A DNA stretch of 7,853 nt from Candidatus Auribacterota bacterium (GTDB taxonomy: Bacteria > Auribacterota > JAFGBW01): positions 1 to 7,853 of the forward strand of contig JAFGBW010000186.1 in the NCBI GenBank assembly GCA_016932965.1, given 5' to 3'. Below, one piece after another: positions 1,072 to 7,524 of this stretch (position 1 is its first letter; each line of letters opens with the position of its first letter). The translations under genes were made by a program, and so were the position numbers. The notes under the pieces are model-generated. The model did not search any database, had not been told where the DNA came from, and saw only the letters and a list, made by a program, of their open reading frames with translations.

Positions 1072-2448
1072 TCATAATCCATATTGATTGATTTTATATC
1101 TGAGTGTTGAATAAGGCATGTGAAGGATCCTGGCGGCATTTTTCCGGTTCCATTTGGCTTCTTTCAGAGCGGAACTGATTTTTTCGGCTTCTTCATTCGA
1201 AGCGGATATTTCATTGCCCTGGCTAGTATTATCAGAAAGTTCGGAATGAATATGCTGCGATAAATAGAGGTGTTCAACTCCGATTTCAAGTGTGGAAGAA
1301 ATGATGGCTGCCCTTTCAACAATGTTTCTTAATTCTCTGACATTGCCAGGAAAAGAATAATTTAAAAGCGCTTGTCGGGCCCCGGTGGATAAAAATTTAT
1401 TTCCCATTTTTTTTGAGAACAAAAAAGAATTCAAAAAATGCTCTGCCAGAGGAATGATATCCTCCTTTCTTTCTCTCAAGGGGGATAAATGAATGTGAAA
1501 CGCATTCAATCTGAAAAACAGATCCTGTCTGAATCGTCCTTCTTTTAATAAATTTTCCAGTAAGATATTGGAGGCGGCAATCAATCTGAGATCCACTCTG
1601 ATTTCTTCATGGGAGCCGATCGGTCTGAATGAGCGGGTTTCCAAGACTCGTAATAATTTCGCCTGCATGGAAAGGCTCAAATCGGCTATTTCATCCAAAA
1701 AAAGCGTGCCTTTGTCAGCCATTCTGAAATAGCCGTAATGATTCATGATGGCTCCTGTGAAAGCGCCCTTGACATGACCAAAGAGTTCGCTTTCCACCAA
1801 GGTCTCTGAAAGAGCCGGACAGCTGACCGCAATAAAAGGAATCCGGTCACCGCCTGCCTGATCATGAAGGACTTTGGCTACGACTTCTTTTCCTGTACCG
1901 GTTTCTCCTGTGATAAGAATACTGCTACAGCGTGCCTGAACCGCCTGGCGAATCTGTTTTTGCACTTTTCGGAGGGAGGAACTTTGTCCGATTAATTGCG
2001 GAGTGGAAGGTCCGGAATTGCTTGCCTGCTGAACCGCAACCAATGTCTGACTGAGGAGCGTCTTTTCCTGATTCAGTTTTCTCAGTTGTTGAATTTTTTC
2101 CAGAATTGCGTCCAGTTCCAGAAGTTTGACAGGTTTTTCCAAATAATCTGCGGCACCGAGACGAAGCGCCTGAATCGCCGTTTCAAGAGTTCCCTGTCCC
2201 GTGATGATGACGACCGGCAGTTCAGGGTATCTTTGCTTGATATCCTTCAGCAGATTGATGCCGTCCATATCGGGCAGATGAATATCGAGCATGATTAAAT
2301 CGAAATCGCTTTCTTCAATTTTGGAAAGGGCCTCTTCACCATAAAGGACTTTGAATATTTGATGTCCTGCGCTGGAAAAATATCCTTCCAGAACACGAAG
2401 AACGATTTCTTCATCATCCACCAAAAGGATTCGCAGCGGATTTTTCAA
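1072..2448 (-). CDS. NtrC-family sigma-54-dependent response regulator
   Basis: Cytoplasmic bacterial enhancer-binding protein of 458 residues with the full receiver, AAA+ and Fis-type HTH layout of the NtrC/ZraR/FlrC group. The receiver (about 5-120) has acidic pocket D11 and D12, phosphoacceptor D55, T83 and K105. The AAA+ domain (about 150-385) has Walker A GETGTGKE (181-188), the sigma-54-contacting GAFTGA loop (228-233), Walker B GTLFLDEIADL (247-257), putative arginine fingers in GRFRQDLFFRLN (304-315) and sensor II NVREL (369-373). The C-terminal HTH (about 423-456, NRKNAARILHMPYSTLRYKI) binds DNA. All key residues are present, so it should hydrolyse ATP and remodel sigma-54 RNA polymerase. 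The start is a TTG overlapping the upstream stop as TTGA, with AGAGG (2457-2453) 4 nt ahead, so it is translationally coupled to the kinase-like gene. The target is not shown by the sequence. Proximity to fliA makes a flagellar (FlrC/FlgR-like) role possible, but stress or metabolic regulators look the same. Confidence 0.96.
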   Translation of the reverse strand: MKNPLRILLVDDEEIVLRVLEGYFSSAGHQIFKVLYGEEALSKIEESDFDLIMLDIHLPDMDGINLLKDIKQRYPELPVVIITGQGTLETAIQALRLGAADYLEKPVKLLELDAILEKIQQLRKLNQEKTLLSQTLVAVQQASNSGPSTPQLIGQSSSLRKVQKQIRQAVQARCSSILITGETGTGKEVVAKVLHDQAGGDRIPFIAVSCPALSETLVESELFGHVKGAFTGAIMNHYGYFRMADKGTLFLDEIADLSLSMQAKLLRVLETRSFRPIGSHEEIRVDLRLIAASNILLENLLKEGRFRQDLFFRLNAFHIHLSPLRERKEDIIPLAEHFLNSFLFSKKMGNKFLSTGARQALLNYSFPGNVRELRNIVERAAIISSTLEIGVEHLYLSQHIHSELSDNTSQGNEISASNEEAEKISSALKEAKWNRKNAARILHMPYSTLRYKINQYGL

Positions 2449-3194
2449 GTGGCCTCTTTTATTAGTTTAACGGTTGGCAAGTAGATTATCACCTGGCGTC
2501 CTTTTTCCTTTTTTTTGTGCGTCATCCTCCCGTTTAACCTGTCAAGAAGGGTGGGGATTGTTTGGAAAAAAGGGGAATTTTCAATGAAATTATTTTCAGT
2601 AAAGATATTTGACACGCCTTGATAATCATAGGTGACAGCGATAGGAAAATCAAGATCACTGTTATTCAGGCCGGTTGTTATCACCAGGCTAGGAGGATCG
2701 ATCCCCTCTATTTTTTCCATTTTTACCTCATATAAATCAAGGAAGGCGGCCTGAAGAACAAGAAAAATTTCGCATAAGTCGAAAAAATGTCCCCAGATCA
2801 ACGGGAGGTCCTCTTTCAAGTAAAGATGGTATCCGATTCTCTTTTTATTCATCCTATTTTTGAGTAATTCAATAGATAGGAGGATAGCCTCATTCACGGA
2901 TACGGGAGACAAATCTGTTGTTTGGGCTTCTTTCGAAATTTTCTGAACAGGCTTTAATATGGAGGTGATCCGGTCAATCTGGTGAATGATCTCTTCCGCA
3001 TGATCCCGAATTTTTCCCGGGTCCAGATCCCATCCTTTTTTTATAGACAGCAATAAGTGCTCAGCGAGCCCTCTGATTCCGAAAAGCGGCTGGTTCAATT
3101 CATGAGCGATCCGCAGTGCCGTCCCGCCGAAAAATTGCGTCCGGTTTTGTAAGATGGACGAAGTCTTGATTGACTGATGCTGTCGGATTTTCAA
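2445..3194 (-). CDS. Soluble histidine-kinase-like protein with degenerate ATP-binding domain
   Basis: 249 residues, no membrane segment and no sensor domain. A dimerisation/phosphotransfer helix pair spans about 22-90, with H box RIAHELNQPLFGIRG (28-42) and phosphoacceptor H31. The second half is laid out like a HATPase_c domain: SVNEAI (99-104) and a final strand GRQVIIYLP (232-240) align with normal kinases. Its catalytic motifs are missing. The N box region (142-155, EIFLVLQAAFLDLY) has no Asn, the DxGxG (G1) site reads VTYDYQGVS (187-195) with Tyr where Asp is expected, and no GxGxG lid is present. It probably cannot bind ATP in the usual way and may be a phosphotransferase, phosphatase or inert partner of the downstream regulator. 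The start is TTG with GGGGG (3204-3200) 5 nt ahead. An in-frame TAA lies just upstream, so no longer form is possible without a frameshift. The stop overlaps the regulator start (TTGA). Confidence 0.88.
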   Translation of the reverse strand: MKIRQHQSIKTSSILQNRTQFFGGTALRIAHELNQPLFGIRGLAEHLLLSIKKGWDLDPGKIRDHAEEIIHQIDRITSILKPVQKISKEAQTTDLSPVSVNEAILLSIELLKNRMNKKRIGYHLYLKEDLPLIWGHFFDLCEIFLVLQAAFLDLYEVKMEKIEGIDPPSLVITTGLNNSDLDFPIAVTYDYQGVSNIFTENNFIENSPFFQTIPTLLDRLNGRMTHKKKEKGRQVIIYLPTVKLIKEAT

Positions 3195-3256
3195 TGAAAC
3201 CCCCGAGTTTTAAAAAATACTCCTTCCAAGATCATGATTTAGTATCTTTATTTTAC

Positions 3257-3307
3257 CTGATAGCCCCATATTGCTCTATAAAAAAATTCAGATTTGGGGC
3301 TATTCAG
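3257..3307. repeat. Long inverted repeat upstream of the kinase-like gene
   Basis: Left arm CTGATAGCCCCA (3257-3268) is the reverse complement of right arm TGGGGCTA-T-TCAG (3295-3307), apart from one bulged T at 3303. That gives 12 pairs around a 26-nt AT-rich loop. It lies 63 bases upstream of the kinase-like start, in its probable promoter or leader. It could be an operator dyad or an RNA stem. It lacks an adjacent T run on either strand, so it does not look like an intrinsic terminator. Confidence 0.6.
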
Positions 3308-3333
3308 CCATATTTTTATTTATCCTGAAAGAC

Positions 3334-3354
3334 ATCCTTTTTTATAAAAAGGAT
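3334..3354. repeat. 9-bp AT-rich hairpin
   Basis: ATCCTTTTT and AAAAAGGAT form a perfect 9-bp stem around a 3-nt TAT loop. Only two G-C pairs are present, so the structure is weak. Its role is unknown; it may be part of the promoter region of either divergent unit. Confidence 0.5.
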
Positions 3355-3419
3355 TTTATCCGGGCTCCCGACTAATTTCATATGACTTTTTACATAGGAA
3401 AAACGGATGGGAAGGTCCC

Positions 3420-3450
3420 TGAAAAAATGATTTATTCCATCATTTTTTCA
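3420..3450. repeat. Perfect 12-bp hairpin overlapping the next repeat
   Basis: TGAAAAAATGAT (3420-3431) and ATCATTTTTTCA (3439-3450) are perfect reverse complements around a 7-nt loop TTATTCC. The right arm is shared with the left end of the palindromic element starting at 3447, so the two structures cannot form together in one transcript. No gene ends immediately upstream, which argues against a simple terminator role. Confidence 0.6.
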
Positions 3451-3535
3451 CCCAGAAGGACACGAAGCGCATGATATAGGGAAACGGGCAAAAGTATGAC
3501 TTGCTTAGCCTCTTCTTCGTGTTTTTCGGGGTGAA
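3447..3535. repeat. 89-bp palindromic (MITE/REP-like) element, copy 1
   Basis: The outer 21 bases at 3447-3467 and 3515-3535 are inverted repeats matching at 18 of 21 positions, with mismatches at arm positions 8, 12 and 13. The arms carry the words TTCACCC and ACACGAAG. The core GAAGGACACGAA (3455-3466) recurs exactly at 6745-6756 in a second element. The interior (3468-3514) has no open reading frame. The pattern, short with inverted ends, intergenic and repeated, fits a non-autonomous dispersed element. I see no clear target duplication. Confidence 0.55.
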
Positions 3536-3693
3536 ATTGATTTTAAAAATAGAGATTCCACTTGTCATTAATCCTAATCCATTGTGATTTTTATCAATTG
3601 AATGGGGGCTGTCCTGAAAAATCGGATGTTTTGACTGGCCATTCTTCCCAAGAGATACGGATACACATCGAAATGGGATTTAAGAAAAATCTT

Positions 3694-3720
3694 TTGTTTT
3701 TTCTGCTACTTATTTATAAT
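3694..3720 (+). promoter_or_regulatory. Possible sigma-70-type promoter for fliA
   Basis: A perfect -10 hexamer TATAAT (3715-3720) lies 15 bases after a weak -35 TTGTTT (3694-3699). Transcription would start near 3727, leaving a leader of only about 12 nt with the Shine-Dalgarno at its very start. The short leader, short spacer and poor -35 in an AT-rich stretch keep confidence low. Confidence 0.3.
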
Positions 3721-3725
3721 GAAAT

Positions 3726-3732
3726 AAAGGAG
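3726..3732 (+). promoter_or_regulatory. Ribosome binding site fixing the fliA start
   Basis: AAAGGAG is 6 nt before the ATG at 3739. It decides against the longer in-frame start at 3562 (TTG), which has no comparable site and would add 59 residues unlike any sigma factor. Confidence 0.85.
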
Positions 3733-3738
3733 AGTCTC

Positions 3739-4521
3739 ATGACTGAAACGGAAGTTAAGCAGGCATGGCAGACCTATATCAAAACCCGGAATATGAAGAT
3801 CAAAAATGATCTCATCCTGCACTATCTTCCTGTGGTCAGGCACAATGCTTCCCGATTGGCGTTAGCACTCCCATCTCATGTGAACATCAATGATCTCATT
3901 TCTTCCGGTGTAGTTGGACTGATTTCTTCCATTGAAAAATTTGATCCTAATGCCGGTTTTCAGTTTAAAAGCTTCGCTTCGCATCGTATTCAGGGGGCCA
4001 TGCTCGATGAGTTAAGAAATCTGGATTGGATTCCGCGTACCATTCGTTCCAAATCCAAAAAGGTACAGGCAGCCTATAATGAAGCGCAACAGAAGCACGG
4101 TCGCATGCCGACGGATGTGGAAGTGGCTGAATATCTAGGGGTTTCCATGGAGCAATTCAATGAGCTTTTAGAAGCCACCAAGATCATTTCCTTATTTTCT
4201 TTTGATGCCAGGATCAATCCATCCCTCATGGAAGATTCCCCCCTTTTATCGGAGCTGATCAAGGACCCCAGGATTGCCTCTCCCAGCCAGGAAATTTCCA
4301 GGGAGGAACTCAAACAGCTTCTTATCCAGGCCATTAATGAACTGCCTAAACAGGAAAAAACGGTTTTGATTCTTTATTATTATGAGGAATTGACGTTAAA
4401 GGAAATCGGGGAAGTATTGGGGGTGACGGAATCCAGAATTTGCCAGATTCATGCGAAAGCTATTTTTAAATTGAAGGCGCGGGTTCATACGAGTGAGATC
4501 AAGGAATATGCGACCCATTGA
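3739..4521 (+). CDS. fliA: Flagellar sigma factor FliA (sigma-28)
   Basis: Sigma-28 family RNA polymerase sigma factor of 260 residues, within the usual 230-260 range. In this family it directs transcription of late flagellar and chemotaxis genes and is held by the anti-sigma factor FlgM until the hook is complete. Region 2 spans about 20-97: DLISSGVVGLISSIEKFDP at 52-70, then FKSFASHRIQGAMLDELRNLDW at 76-97, which contains the promoter-melting and -10 recognition surface. Region 3 follows with the FliA-typical IPR (98-100), KVQAAYN and GRMPTDVEVAEYLGV (121-135). Region 4 (about 196-250) ends in the -35-binding HTH LTLKEIGEVLGVTESRICQ (218-236). The start is the ATG with a good ribosome binding site. 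Its end overlaps the next gene by 14 bases, so it appears to head an operon with the charged protein and fliK. No flgM is visible here. Confidence 0.95.
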   Translation: MTETEVKQAWQTYIKTRNMKIKNDLILHYLPVVRHNASRLALALPSHVNINDLISSGVVGLISSIEKFDPNAGFQFKSFASHRIQGAMLDELRNLDWIPRTIRSKSKKVQAAYNEAQQKHGRMPTDVEVAEYLGVSMEQFNELLEATKIISLFSFDARINPSLMEDSPLLSELIKDPRIASPSQEISREELKQLLIQAINELPKQEKTVLILYYYEELTLKEIGEVLGVTESRICQIHAKAIFKLKARVHTSEIKEYATH

Positions 4522-4822
4522 ATTTCTTCAGTCAATTGACAGACAGATTGCAGCGGATCAGATCCAGCAAAATAAAACACATGATTCCAAGGATGTGACA
4601 GGTGAGTTGACTGTCCGGCAAATGCAGGAGGATGCCAAAGTCAAGGATTTGACGGTGAATGAATCGGATCAGAAAAATAAGATCAATCCTGACGAGGAAA
4701 AGGAAAAAAAAGAGGGACGCCATTCCCAGCCAAATAAAGAAAAGAAAGATGAAATCCCTGAAAACAAGGAACTGTTGACCCCGGATCCTGAAAAGGGGCA
4801 AAATTTGGATATCATTGTCTGA
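4508..4822 (+). CDS. Small, highly charged protein of the flagellar operon
   Basis: 104 residues, function unknown. The N-terminal 20 residues look like a helix (PIEFLQSIDRQIAADQIQQ). The middle (about 55-90) is very rich in Lys and Glu and probably disordered. The last residues GQNLDIIV recall the hydrophobic GH(I/L)IDI(K/R)V ending of unnamed small proteins found between fliA and fliK in several bacteria; that link is from memory and is inference. The ATG at 4508 overlaps the fliA end by 14 bases, with AAGGA (4501-4505) very close. A GTG at 4493 is an in-frame alternative adding five residues. The stop TGA shares its last base with the fliK ATG, so translation is coupled on both sides. I see no membrane segment or signal peptide. 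Confidence 0.75.
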   Translation: MRPIEFLQSIDRQIAADQIQQNKTHDSKDVTGELTVRQMQEDAKVKDLTVNESDQKNKINPDEEKEKKEGRHSQPNKEKKDEIPENKELLTPDPEKGQNLDIIV

Positions 4823-6684
4823 TGGCCTCTTCTTCCACTGATCTGTTGATACAATCCCTTTACGCGGCTTCGAATTCGTCTCTTTCTGATTCCTTGAAGA
4901 ACAGCCTTAAATCCGGCCAGACCGTTCTGGCTCAAATCTTGGAGACTATGGCGGACGGCCAGTTTTTATTATTCATGAAAGGTCAGACCGTTCTGGCCCA
5001 TTCTAACATTGCCTTTAGCAAAGGGGAAACCATCCGGGCAAAAGTCGAGACCATCGAGCCTCAACTGGTTTTGAAATTCATTGAATCTGCCCGCCAGTCT
5101 CCCGAGGCAACGCAGGATGCCCCTATAAAAGATCAACTTTCCAGGATGAACATTCTGCCCGCCCCAGATAATATCACTGCAGCAAAATGTTTTGCCAGGG
5201 AACTGATGCCCCTCAAAACAGAGACTTTCACTCCCTTTTTAGATTTCATTCAGAAGATGAATTTATCTGATCAAAAAGACATAGCCATTGCCGTAAAAAT
5301 GGTTAAACATGATATGGCTTTGACACAACATTTATTTGAGAAAGTTAGACCTTATTTTGCTGAAACGGAAAAGGGGTCTTTATCCGTTCCCCATCTTGTT
5401 GAAACACTCAAGAGAATTCAACCGGATCTCCCGGCATCTCTTTCCGCTTCGACAGCCTCCGTTATTAAAAATTTGGAATTGGCTTTGCAGAACACCTTTT
5501 TTTCTTCTTCTTCCAGTGCAGATCAAATTTTTTCGGCCATTAAAAACACACTTGATTTTTCCGGATTTTCTTTTGAAAAAATGTTCCTGGCTGCCATGGT
5601 TAAACAGGTCTTTGAGCCTTCCCAATTCATGGAAAGTTTTCCCAAACTCATGGAAATATCCAAGGAGATATTGTCGCAGTTATCTCCTCAGCCAGTTTTA
5701 TCTTCACCCGACGCCGGATTCTCGCAGACCGTGAAGGAATGGCTCTCTTCCGTTACGGAGGTTTACCAGCAATTAACCGTTCCCTCACAGGCCGGTGCCG
5801 ATGCTTTGGTGGATCCTGATTTATCAAAAGGATTGGATATTTTGAAAATGTTGCAGCGTTCGGATTCTTTCTTATCCATGATCAAGTCTCACTCTGTCCC
5901 TGGTATTTTTATTGGAAAGAACATCCAGGAAGAGTTGGTTCAGATCATCCAGAATTTGATGCCGGGTAAACCAGCTGTTTCTTCTGAAACAAAACTCCTT
6001 TCCGATGATCAATCGTCAAGGATGTTTCTTTCTTCCAATGGCCCTTTATCTGAAACTCTCGTCAAAGTACCTGTTAACGCTAAAGAAGAACTCATGAAAC
6101 TAAACAATCTGTTTGAGGAAAAAGGATTGTCCGAGACGAATCAGGTTTTGACTCCTGTCAGGAAAGGGTCTTTTGAGGACCTTTCCATCAAGGAAATACC
6201 GGTTCAAAGAGTCCAGCAGGAAATTCAGGGAGCGCTCGACGGGATCACACAAAAACAGATAGATTCTCTACCCGTGTCAACGGATTCTCCCCGCAACCAG
6301 GAAATATCGCTTTATTGGCTGAATCCGGAAGGGTGCCCAAACGAGTTGAAAATTCTATTTGAAGAACATTCCTCCTGGGGGCAACAAAATGAAAAAAACA
6401 AGGCCTTCCGCATCTTTTTTTCTATGGATCTGTCCAACCTGGGTGCCTTTGAAATCAATCTGTTAGAGCAAAACCACAATATGGAGATCGTGTTTGTTTC
6501 CAAAGAGGAAAAGGTGATGTCCTTTTTCAAGGAAAACAGCGATTCTTTGACAGAGGCTCTTCGAAAGGCGGGCATTCATTCCGTGATCGTGAAAACCGTT
6601 AAAGCCGGCGGCGCCTCTTTGGCCGCACCCATTTCGTCTCCATCTCATATTCTCAAATTTCCTAATATTGACATCACGGTTTGA
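4822..6684 (+). CDS. fliK: FliK-like flagellar hook-length control protein
   Basis: 620 residues. In this family FliK is exported through the flagellar type III apparatus and acts as the ruler that ends hook growth and switches FlhB specificity to filament substrates. The N-terminus (about 32-92) is a small beta-rich module (GQTVLAQILETMADGQFLLF, then KGETIRAKVETIEPQLVLKF) of a kind seen in many deltaproteobacterial-type FliK proteins. The long middle (about 95-490) is Ser/Thr/Gln-rich, predicted mostly helical and poorly conserved. The C-terminal switch domain (about 527-596) has FRIFFSMDLSNLGAFEINLL (529-548) and ends ALRKAGIHSVIVKTV, matching the Flg_hook pattern. The ATG overlaps the preceding stop (TGATG) with no strong ribosome binding site, implying coupled translation. 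A 17-nt near-repeat duplicates GQTVLA at residues 32-37 and 54-59. The family call is good; naming it fliK rests on the C-terminal domain and position. Confidence 0.87.
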   Translation: MASSSTDLLIQSLYAASNSSLSDSLKNSLKSGQTVLAQILETMADGQFLLFMKGQTVLAHSNIAFSKGETIRAKVETIEPQLVLKFIESARQSPEATQDAPIKDQLSRMNILPAPDNITAAKCFARELMPLKTETFTPFLDFIQKMNLSDQKDIAIAVKMVKHDMALTQHLFEKVRPYFAETEKGSLSVPHLVETLKRIQPDLPASLSASTASVIKNLELALQNTFFSSSSSADQIFSAIKNTLDFSGFSFEKMFLAAMVKQVFEPSQFMESFPKLMEISKEILSQLSPQPVLSSPDAGFSQTVKEWLSSVTEVYQQLTVPSQAGADALVDPDLSKGLDILKMLQRSDSFLSMIKSHSVPGIFIGKNIQEELVQIIQNLMPGKPAVSSETKLLSDDQSSRMFLSSNGPLSETLVKVPVNAKEELMKLNNLFEEKGLSETNQVLTPVRKGSFEDLSIKEIPVQRVQQEIQGALDGITQKQIDSLPVSTDSPRNQEISLYWLNPEGCPNELKILFEEHSSWGQQNEKNKAFRIFFSMDLSNLGAFEINLLEQNHNMEIVFVSKEEKVMSFFKENSDSLTEALRKAGIHSVIVKTVKAGGASLAAPISSPSHILKFPNIDITV

Positions 6685-6946
6685 GAGCAGTTAAAAAGTA
6701 AATGGTGAATAGTTATCCAAAAAATGAAAAAAAACAATGATCCTGAAGGACACGAAAGAAATGAGGAAAAATGTTGAGTGATGAGTTTCGACTCAAAATT
6801 TAAACCCGGCTACCTTATCTTTTGTGTTCTTTGTGGTACTAATTTTAGATAACCAGTCGTATGCAGTCGAACTTGAGGTGCAGGCTTGTATTTGAATAAT
6901 CCAATTCATGGTTATGAGTGATATTGATATATAGTTGAGACAAAGT
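6685..6946 (+). other. Spacer between fliK and the FlhB-like gene
   Basis: A 262-base AT-rich spacer that breaks an otherwise overlapping flagellar gene run. It has no open frame on the plus strand worth calling; minus-strand frames here are antisense shadows of the FlhB-like gene. It contains a palindromic repeat element (listed separately) and, inside that, a small hairpin TGAGT-TTCG-ACTCA (6782-6795). It may also carry the FlhB-like gene's own promoter, but none stands out. Confidence 0.6.
6742..6837. repeat. 96-bp palindromic element, copy 2 (degenerate)
   Basis: The left arm (6742-6758, core GAAGGACACGAA at 6745-6756) and right arm (6819-6837, TTTTGTGTTCTTTGTGGTA and flank) are imperfect inverted repeats, about 12 of 18 positions. 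The left core is identical to that of the element at 3447-3535 and the total length is similar, so I treat them as two members of one dispersed family. The interior sequences differ apart from being non-coding. Confidence 0.45.
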
Positions 6947-7222
6947 ATGAAAGAGAAATTTTCTCCCAAGAAAAAGGCAGTGGCGCTGCAATACAAGGAA
7001 AAGAAACACCGGGCGCCTGTGATGATTGCCAAGGGATACGGATCCATTGCAGAAAAGATCATCGAGATTGCGAAAAAACACGGTTTGCACATTCATGAGG
7101 ATGCGGATATGGTGGAAGTGCTTTCCCGGCTTGATATTGGACAGGAAATCCCGGAGTATCTTTACAAGGCCATTGCAGAAATTTTGGCGTTTGTATATAA
7201 ATTGAATAAACAATATCACTAA
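6947..7222 (+). CDS. Stand-alone FlhB C-terminal-domain protein
   Basis: 91 residues resembling only the cytoplasmic C-terminal domain of FlhB/YscU/EscU export-switch proteins, as in the short FlhB homologues often called FlhX or FhlB. Diagnostic stretches are KKKAVALQY (8-16), APVMIAKGYGSIAEKIIEIAKKHG (23-46), HEDADMVEVLSRLDIGQEIPE (50-70) and AIAEILAFVYKLN (75-87). The transmembrane half and the self-cleaving NPTH motif of full FlhB are absent, so it can only act as a partial mimic or accessory of the export gate. The start is the ATG with GAGA (6937-6940) 6 nt ahead; a TTG at 6935 is an in-frame alternative adding four residues. In related genomes such genes usually directly follow fliK; here a repeat-bearing spacer intervenes. 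A full-length flhB is expected elsewhere in the genome. Confidence 0.88.
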   Translation: MKEKFSPKKKAVALQYKEKKHRAPVMIAKGYGSIAEKIIEIAKKHGLHIHEDADMVEVLSRLDIGQEIPEYLYKAIAEILAFVYKLNKQYH

Positions 7223-7524
7223 AAGCTGAGTCCTGAAAAAATACATATTTGAAATGTTATATAATTATTTATTACTCATTGAATCTTAAGAAGAGGAATT
7301 CAGAATCCGGAATAATAGAAGATAATCACAGTGAATCCTAAAAAACCTAAAATGAAGAAATTAGGCAGATAAACTTTAAATAGAGAATGATTCAATAGCG
7401 TTGGAGATGGGAGATTTTTGAATTCTGACTCATGAATTCCTATCATAAACAAAGAAGTAGCAAATAAATCTCGTGAAATGGACAAATAAATTATTCGTTA
7501 ACAATTTTTCTGGATATGAATGAT
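7223..7524. other. Spacer between the FlhB-like gene and the receiver gene
   Basis: A 302-base, very AT-rich stretch with no supported gene. The minus-strand frame 7485-7300 (61 codons) is open but has no recognisable similarity and lies largely within a palindromic repeat element (7295-7440, listed separately). Promoter elements for the receiver gene probably lie between 7441 and 7524, but I cannot point to a clear one. Confidence 0.6.
7295..7440. repeat. 146-bp element with GGAATTCA/TGAATTCC inverted ends
   Basis: The ends GGAATTCA (7295-7302) and TGAATTCC (7433-7440) are perfect 8-base inverted repeats. The pairing continues inward imperfectly, left GAATCCGGAAT against the complement of right ATTCTGACTC with one offset base. 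The interior carries no convincing gene. This is a different family from the GAAGGACACGAA elements. A related word GAATTCAGAAT also occurs at 933-943 upstream of serC. The likely nature is a short dispersed non-coding repeat. Confidence 0.45.

Follow-up and report, generated by a model that had tools for sequence, protein, structure and literature searches.

A DHp protein with a degenerate CA domain, putatively a phosphotransferase or phosphatase, in an operon with a sigma-54 activator of a Candidatus Auribacterota bacterium

The window analysed here, a stretch of 7,853 nucleotides from a Candidatus Auribacterota bacterium (contig JAFGBW010000186.1), is one entire contig of a 3.1-Mb genome in 300 contigs. 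Its minus strand carries a two-gene operon, in which an open reading frame (ORF) of 249 codons (2445-3194) is followed by a response regulator gene of 458 codons (1072-2448). Both genes start with TTG, and the stop codon of the 249-codon ORF (TGA) shares bases with the start codon of the regulator gene (TTGA). The 249-amino-acid protein, which was examined by Pfam searches (matching HisKA only), alignments, hhalign with shuffled controls, AlphaFold and comparison with the PDB, combines a dimerisation and histidine phosphotransfer (DHp) part with a degenerate catalytic and ATP-binding (CA) domain and is a putative phosphotransferase or phosphatase. The second product is an intact NtrC/AtoC-type regulator with receiver, sigma-54 AAA+ and Fis-type helix-turn-helix domains, in which D11/D12, D55, T83, K105 and the motifs GETGTGKE and GAFTGA are all present.

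The DHp helix hairpin covers residues ~10-90 (2925..3167, minus strand) and contains the motif HELNQPL, with the codon of the phosphoacceptor H31 at 3102-3104 and E32 as the next residue. Pfam HisKA matched residues 29-81 (E=4.2e-7, 30.4 bits vs a cut-off of 26.9), and in alignments H31 and E32 fell on the His and Glu that are invariant in active kinases. HisKA was the sole Pfam-A family matched in the protein at E<=1, and HATPase_c gave no match at that threshold. The ORF has no internal stop, and its frame is closed by a stop five codons before the TTG (open frame of 254 codons), so no in-frame N-terminal sensor is hidden there. A lost or frameshifted sensor domain in 3195-3740 of the minus strand was rejected, as each of the three frames of this region is broken by stops and none stays open for long (the frames were read and no profile search was made). 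The 249-amino-acid protein is soluble and sensorless.

The degenerate, Bergerat-like CA domain occupies residues 93-249 (2448..2918, minus strand), and the order of its elements can be traced from residue 93 onward. The N-box Asn is lost however the helix is aligned, because residues 135-164 contain no Asn at all. At the G1 box (DxGxG) the protein reads Y189-D190-Y191-Q192-G193, so that Tyr stands at the Asp position and the first Gly is gone while the last Gly is kept. In the alignment of hidden Markov models (HMM-HMM), 13 template columns spanning GxGxGL were absent, which indicates that the G2 box or lid was deleted rather than merely mutated. A remnant of the F box (FFQT, 209-212) and the last strand GRQVIIYLP are still present. 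Thus, of the elements of an ATP-dependent HisKA autokinase, the DHp part and the phosphoacceptor His were found, and HATPase_c with N, G1 and G2 boxes was not. Judged from these residues, the ATP site is dead and the phosphoacceptor is retained.

The whole CA region was compared with 16 CA domains of related kinases, combined in a profile, and reached an hhalign score of 45.4, while 200 shuffles gave a mean of 12.8 and a maximum of 21.1. The last 102 residues alone (148-249) scored a borderline 18.5 (95% of shuffles 16.0, maximum 22.4); this lies within the shuffle range, and the C-terminal resemblance therefore rests on the order of elements and on structure, less on sequence. The AlphaFold model built from a 12-protein alignment, for which kinases from viral contigs served only to deepen the alignment, had a predicted local distance difference test (pLDDT) score of 77.6 and showed a DHp hairpin (2-52, 59-90) followed by a CA-like alpha/beta domain. 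Its CA part superposed best, among solved structures, on the CA domain of NtrB (1r62), with Z 16.8 and a root-mean-square deviation of 2.0 over 130 residues. Kinase CA domains ranked first, and the ThkA CA domain also matched. The model supports the view that the Bergerat outline is retained. The original prediction, made from the sequence alone, had proposed an intact H31, the loss of the N-box Asn, Tyr for Asp in G1, an absent lid, a preserved fold outline and an intact NtrC-type regulator, and on each of these points the present results agree with it.

The relatives of the operon were then considered. No convincing orthologue of the CA part was found in the other 43 phylum genomes compared (44 with its own); the one match, with E=0.007, was interrupted by two stops. 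The response regulator likewise had no match at E<=1e-100 in the other genomes. Orthologues with complete boxes at this locus, which the original prediction had named as evidence of recent decay, were looked for: the phylum genomes compared contained no orthologue, and the two order-mates lack the gene pair. Both order-mates have the sigma factor/fliK/cheY cluster, with lipA and other genes in place of the operon (names from reading the translations), and the nearest DHp among them (L009, HEMNQPLTGIRTVAQ...ERGW) sits in an intact PAS kinase. Scans of the genome and of viral contigs with the 249-amino-acid protein returned one ordinary kinase or nothing. In the same genome, the genes of several paralogous response regulators (C243, C224 and C280) are preceded by that of an intact kinase, with the gene order unchanged. 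These kinases suggest that the sensor and the ATP site were lost from an ordinary NtrB/AtoS-type kinase, and an intact kinase upstream of the regulator is the likely ancestral state.

We give an even chance to the reading that the protein is a histidine pseudokinase derived from an NtrB/AtoS-type kinase, which exchanges phosphate through H31 with the sigma-54 activator of its operon as a phosphotransferase, a phosphatase or both. An ordinary kinase would have lost its sensor domain and ATP binding to become such a pseudokinase. The protein would dimerise through DHp helices that still bear H31, and this residue would exchange phosphate with D55 of the receiver. The donor could be a phosphorylated receiver of the cell or another kinase, with the phosphate then passed on; phosphate could instead be drained from the activator, or both activities could be combined, as in PhyT. 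The parts that serve phosphate exchange with a receiver have been kept (DHp, H31, E32 and the receiver of the operon) and those required for ATP have been lost, which makes a phosphotransferase or phosphatase the most economical reading.

Several points weigh against it. The phosphotransfer or phosphatase activity is one that we infer, as is a phosphate donor in trans, whether kinase or receiver. The sequence signal of the C-terminal 100 residues is weak. AlphaFold with a two-sequence alignment gave an unusable model (pLDDT 37.6), and the good model therefore leans on the alignment of intact kinases. And since the phylum genomes compared offer no orthologue, selection on the protein is not directly measurable.

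The main rival, which we consider possible but unlikely, is that the protein is a non-enzymatic modulator, acting by contact with the sigma-54 activator or as a heterodimer with another kinase, and that no phosphate passes through H31. Precedents of this contact type are reportedly NifL, which binds NifA, and the heterodimers RocA/CovS, RetS/GacS and ChrS pseudokinase/HrrS. Such a mode of action would fit the presence of RetS (7n0e) and NifL (9qq6) among the structural matches of the model. However, a regulator acting by steric contact alone would have no use for H31, E32 and the acidic pocket of the receiver, all of which are kept, and the regulator of this operon has a receiver domain, which NifA lacks. 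Among published cases, the ChrS pseudokinase is an example of a non-enzymatic modulator (PMC9491836), and RocA is another named case (PMC7028121).

A decaying kinase gene, which lost ATP binding in this lineage and whose remainder is drifting, with its function gone or going, is also rather unlikely. It would account for the TTG start, the absent sensor domain and the occurrence of the gene in a single genome among the 44 of the phylum. It would also agree with a coding bias of 0.17-0.25 bits/codon compared to 0.35-0.39 in the neighbouring genes, which had themselves trained the score. But the 249 codons form an uninterrupted frame that is coupled to the start of the response regulator, and the DHp part is well conserved. 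Moreover, codon bias in the CA part reached 0.17 bits/codon in frame, whereas the two other frames of the same strand gave -0.63 and -0.61. In neutral simulations started from intact CA domains, only ~0.3-2% remained stop-free at 25-35% identity, with indels not counted, and it is thus improbable that a dead domain would stay open under drift. Long neutral drift of the CA domain, and with it the decay of an old pseudogene, is therefore unlikely, and the clean frame, codon bias and simulations together support the earlier statement that the gene is not a simple pseudogene; a decay that set in recently would still be compatible with them. That the protein is an active kinase whose nucleotide site is unconventional is highly improbable, as the CA outline is preserved in the model but the Mg-ligand Asn, the adenine-binding Asp and the entire G2/lid are absent.

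The genes on the plus strand run in the order FliA/WhiG sigma factor, 109-amino-acid protein, FliK-like protein, stand-alone FlhB C-domain and CheY-like receiver. The divergent FliA/WhiG-family sigma factor (3739..4521, plus strand) is the first gene of a flagellar cluster conserved in the order-mates; we regard it as a neighbour of the DHp/regulator operon and at most a candidate member of the system. The small protein between fliA and fliK (4505-4822) matched no Pfam family, and its start MRPIEFLQSIDR is common to the order-mates (MRPIDIQNAID). The stand-alone FlhB C-terminal domain (FlhX-like, 6935-7222) follows the FliK-like gene, and the same pair occurs in the order-mate G001 (L039). Sigma-54 promoter-like sites in the window amounted to five one-mismatch matches vs 3.6 expected, none of them convincing; the promoter and terminator scan of the window stayed at chance level, and a repeat search in it gave nothing notable.

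HisKA matches over the Pfam cut-off that lack a HATPase_c partner were tallied by eye from tables. There were 4 among 31 in the same genome (the 249-amino-acid protein and at least three more, one on C43 and two on C288), 3 of ~45 in G001 and a borderline one of ~32 in G002. The C43 protein (L073:3744-4418) has counterparts in the order-mates (L039:18715-19794 and L084:3540-4592); all three have lost G1 and G2, and the N-box 'NA' is kept. Its gene comes directly after genes for an HDOD-like protein and for a GAF-PAS-type kinase that is intact, and the counterparts in both order-mates occupy the corresponding position, so that the case is conserved across two families of the order. A close relationship to the 249-amino-acid protein was rejected on comparison. 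Given this conservation, the C43 protein is the stronger case for a dead kinase being maintained in the order. The two C288 genes (L071:4782-6197 and 6184-7242) overlap and encode membrane proteins that end in HisKA with no CA domain, the second having Asp at the phosphoacceptor position (LDDEISNPLT). A borderline 346-amino-acid protein on C41 (L072:5046-6083), beside ATP synthase genes, has weak HisKA (24.6 bits) and HATPase_c (17.9 bits) matches, both below the cut-offs. It is a quite doubtful idea that the lineage independently made several ATP-less DHp proteins (the 249-amino-acid protein, C43, two on C288 and partly C41) as a dispersed phosphorelay, in which few true kinases would feed several DHp relays, one of them for the sigma-54 activator beside flagellar genes.

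Among known systems, PhyT is a degenerate kinase encoded at the locus of its regulator and a bifunctional phosphotransferase/phosphatase (PMC5898713), and of the published precedents it comes closest both in function and in the placement of its gene. In PhyT/PhyP of Sphingomonas, as here, the degenerate kinase gene lies beside the regulator, the DHp His is conserved and the ATPase domain has degenerated; PhyT/PhyP differ in the HRxxN motif of the DHp domain (HELNQ here), and the present protein is soluble, sensorless, of HisKA type (HELNQPL) and paired with a sigma-54 activator. ChpT is the structural precedent (PMC3433190). ChpT of Caulobacter and Spo0B of Bacillus share with the 249-amino-acid protein a short soluble form, a DHp hairpin and a Bergerat-like domain not expected to use ATP. 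The original prediction had drawn on this analogy and proposed a structural comparison. As a guide to the mode of action the analogy is reasonable, but membership did not hold, as Pfam-A at E<=1 gave no match to the ChpT and Spo0B profiles and the CA fold resembles that of the ordinary kinases NtrB and ThkA. A further difference is that the gene sits with its presumed target. Neither ChpT nor Spo0B was among the 50 structural matches listed for the model, a listing that is compatible with a resemblance to them. NtrB (NRII), AtoS and ZraS have the same DHp type, CA fold and operon with an NtrC/AtoC-type regulator, and differ in possessing N, G1 and G2 boxes and a sensor domain.

Proteins described as 'HisKA, no HATPase' or 'incomplete histidine kinase' (P2CS) are a recognised class (PMC5847659), and the 249-amino-acid protein, with a conserved His in HisKA and no recognisable HATPase domain, therefore joins a known kind rather than a new one. 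The described members have PAS, GAF or other sensors, whereas here there is none and a CA remnant persists. The protein is apparently an independently evolved case of an ATP-less DHp protein. It would add, from a sparsely sampled phylum, a kinase that has become a phosphate relay or phosphatase, beside a sigma-54 activator and with the CA domain surviving as a shell. A comparison of such cases would reveal what a dead CA domain still serves, and the C43 protein, conserved across the order, is the better object for asking this question.
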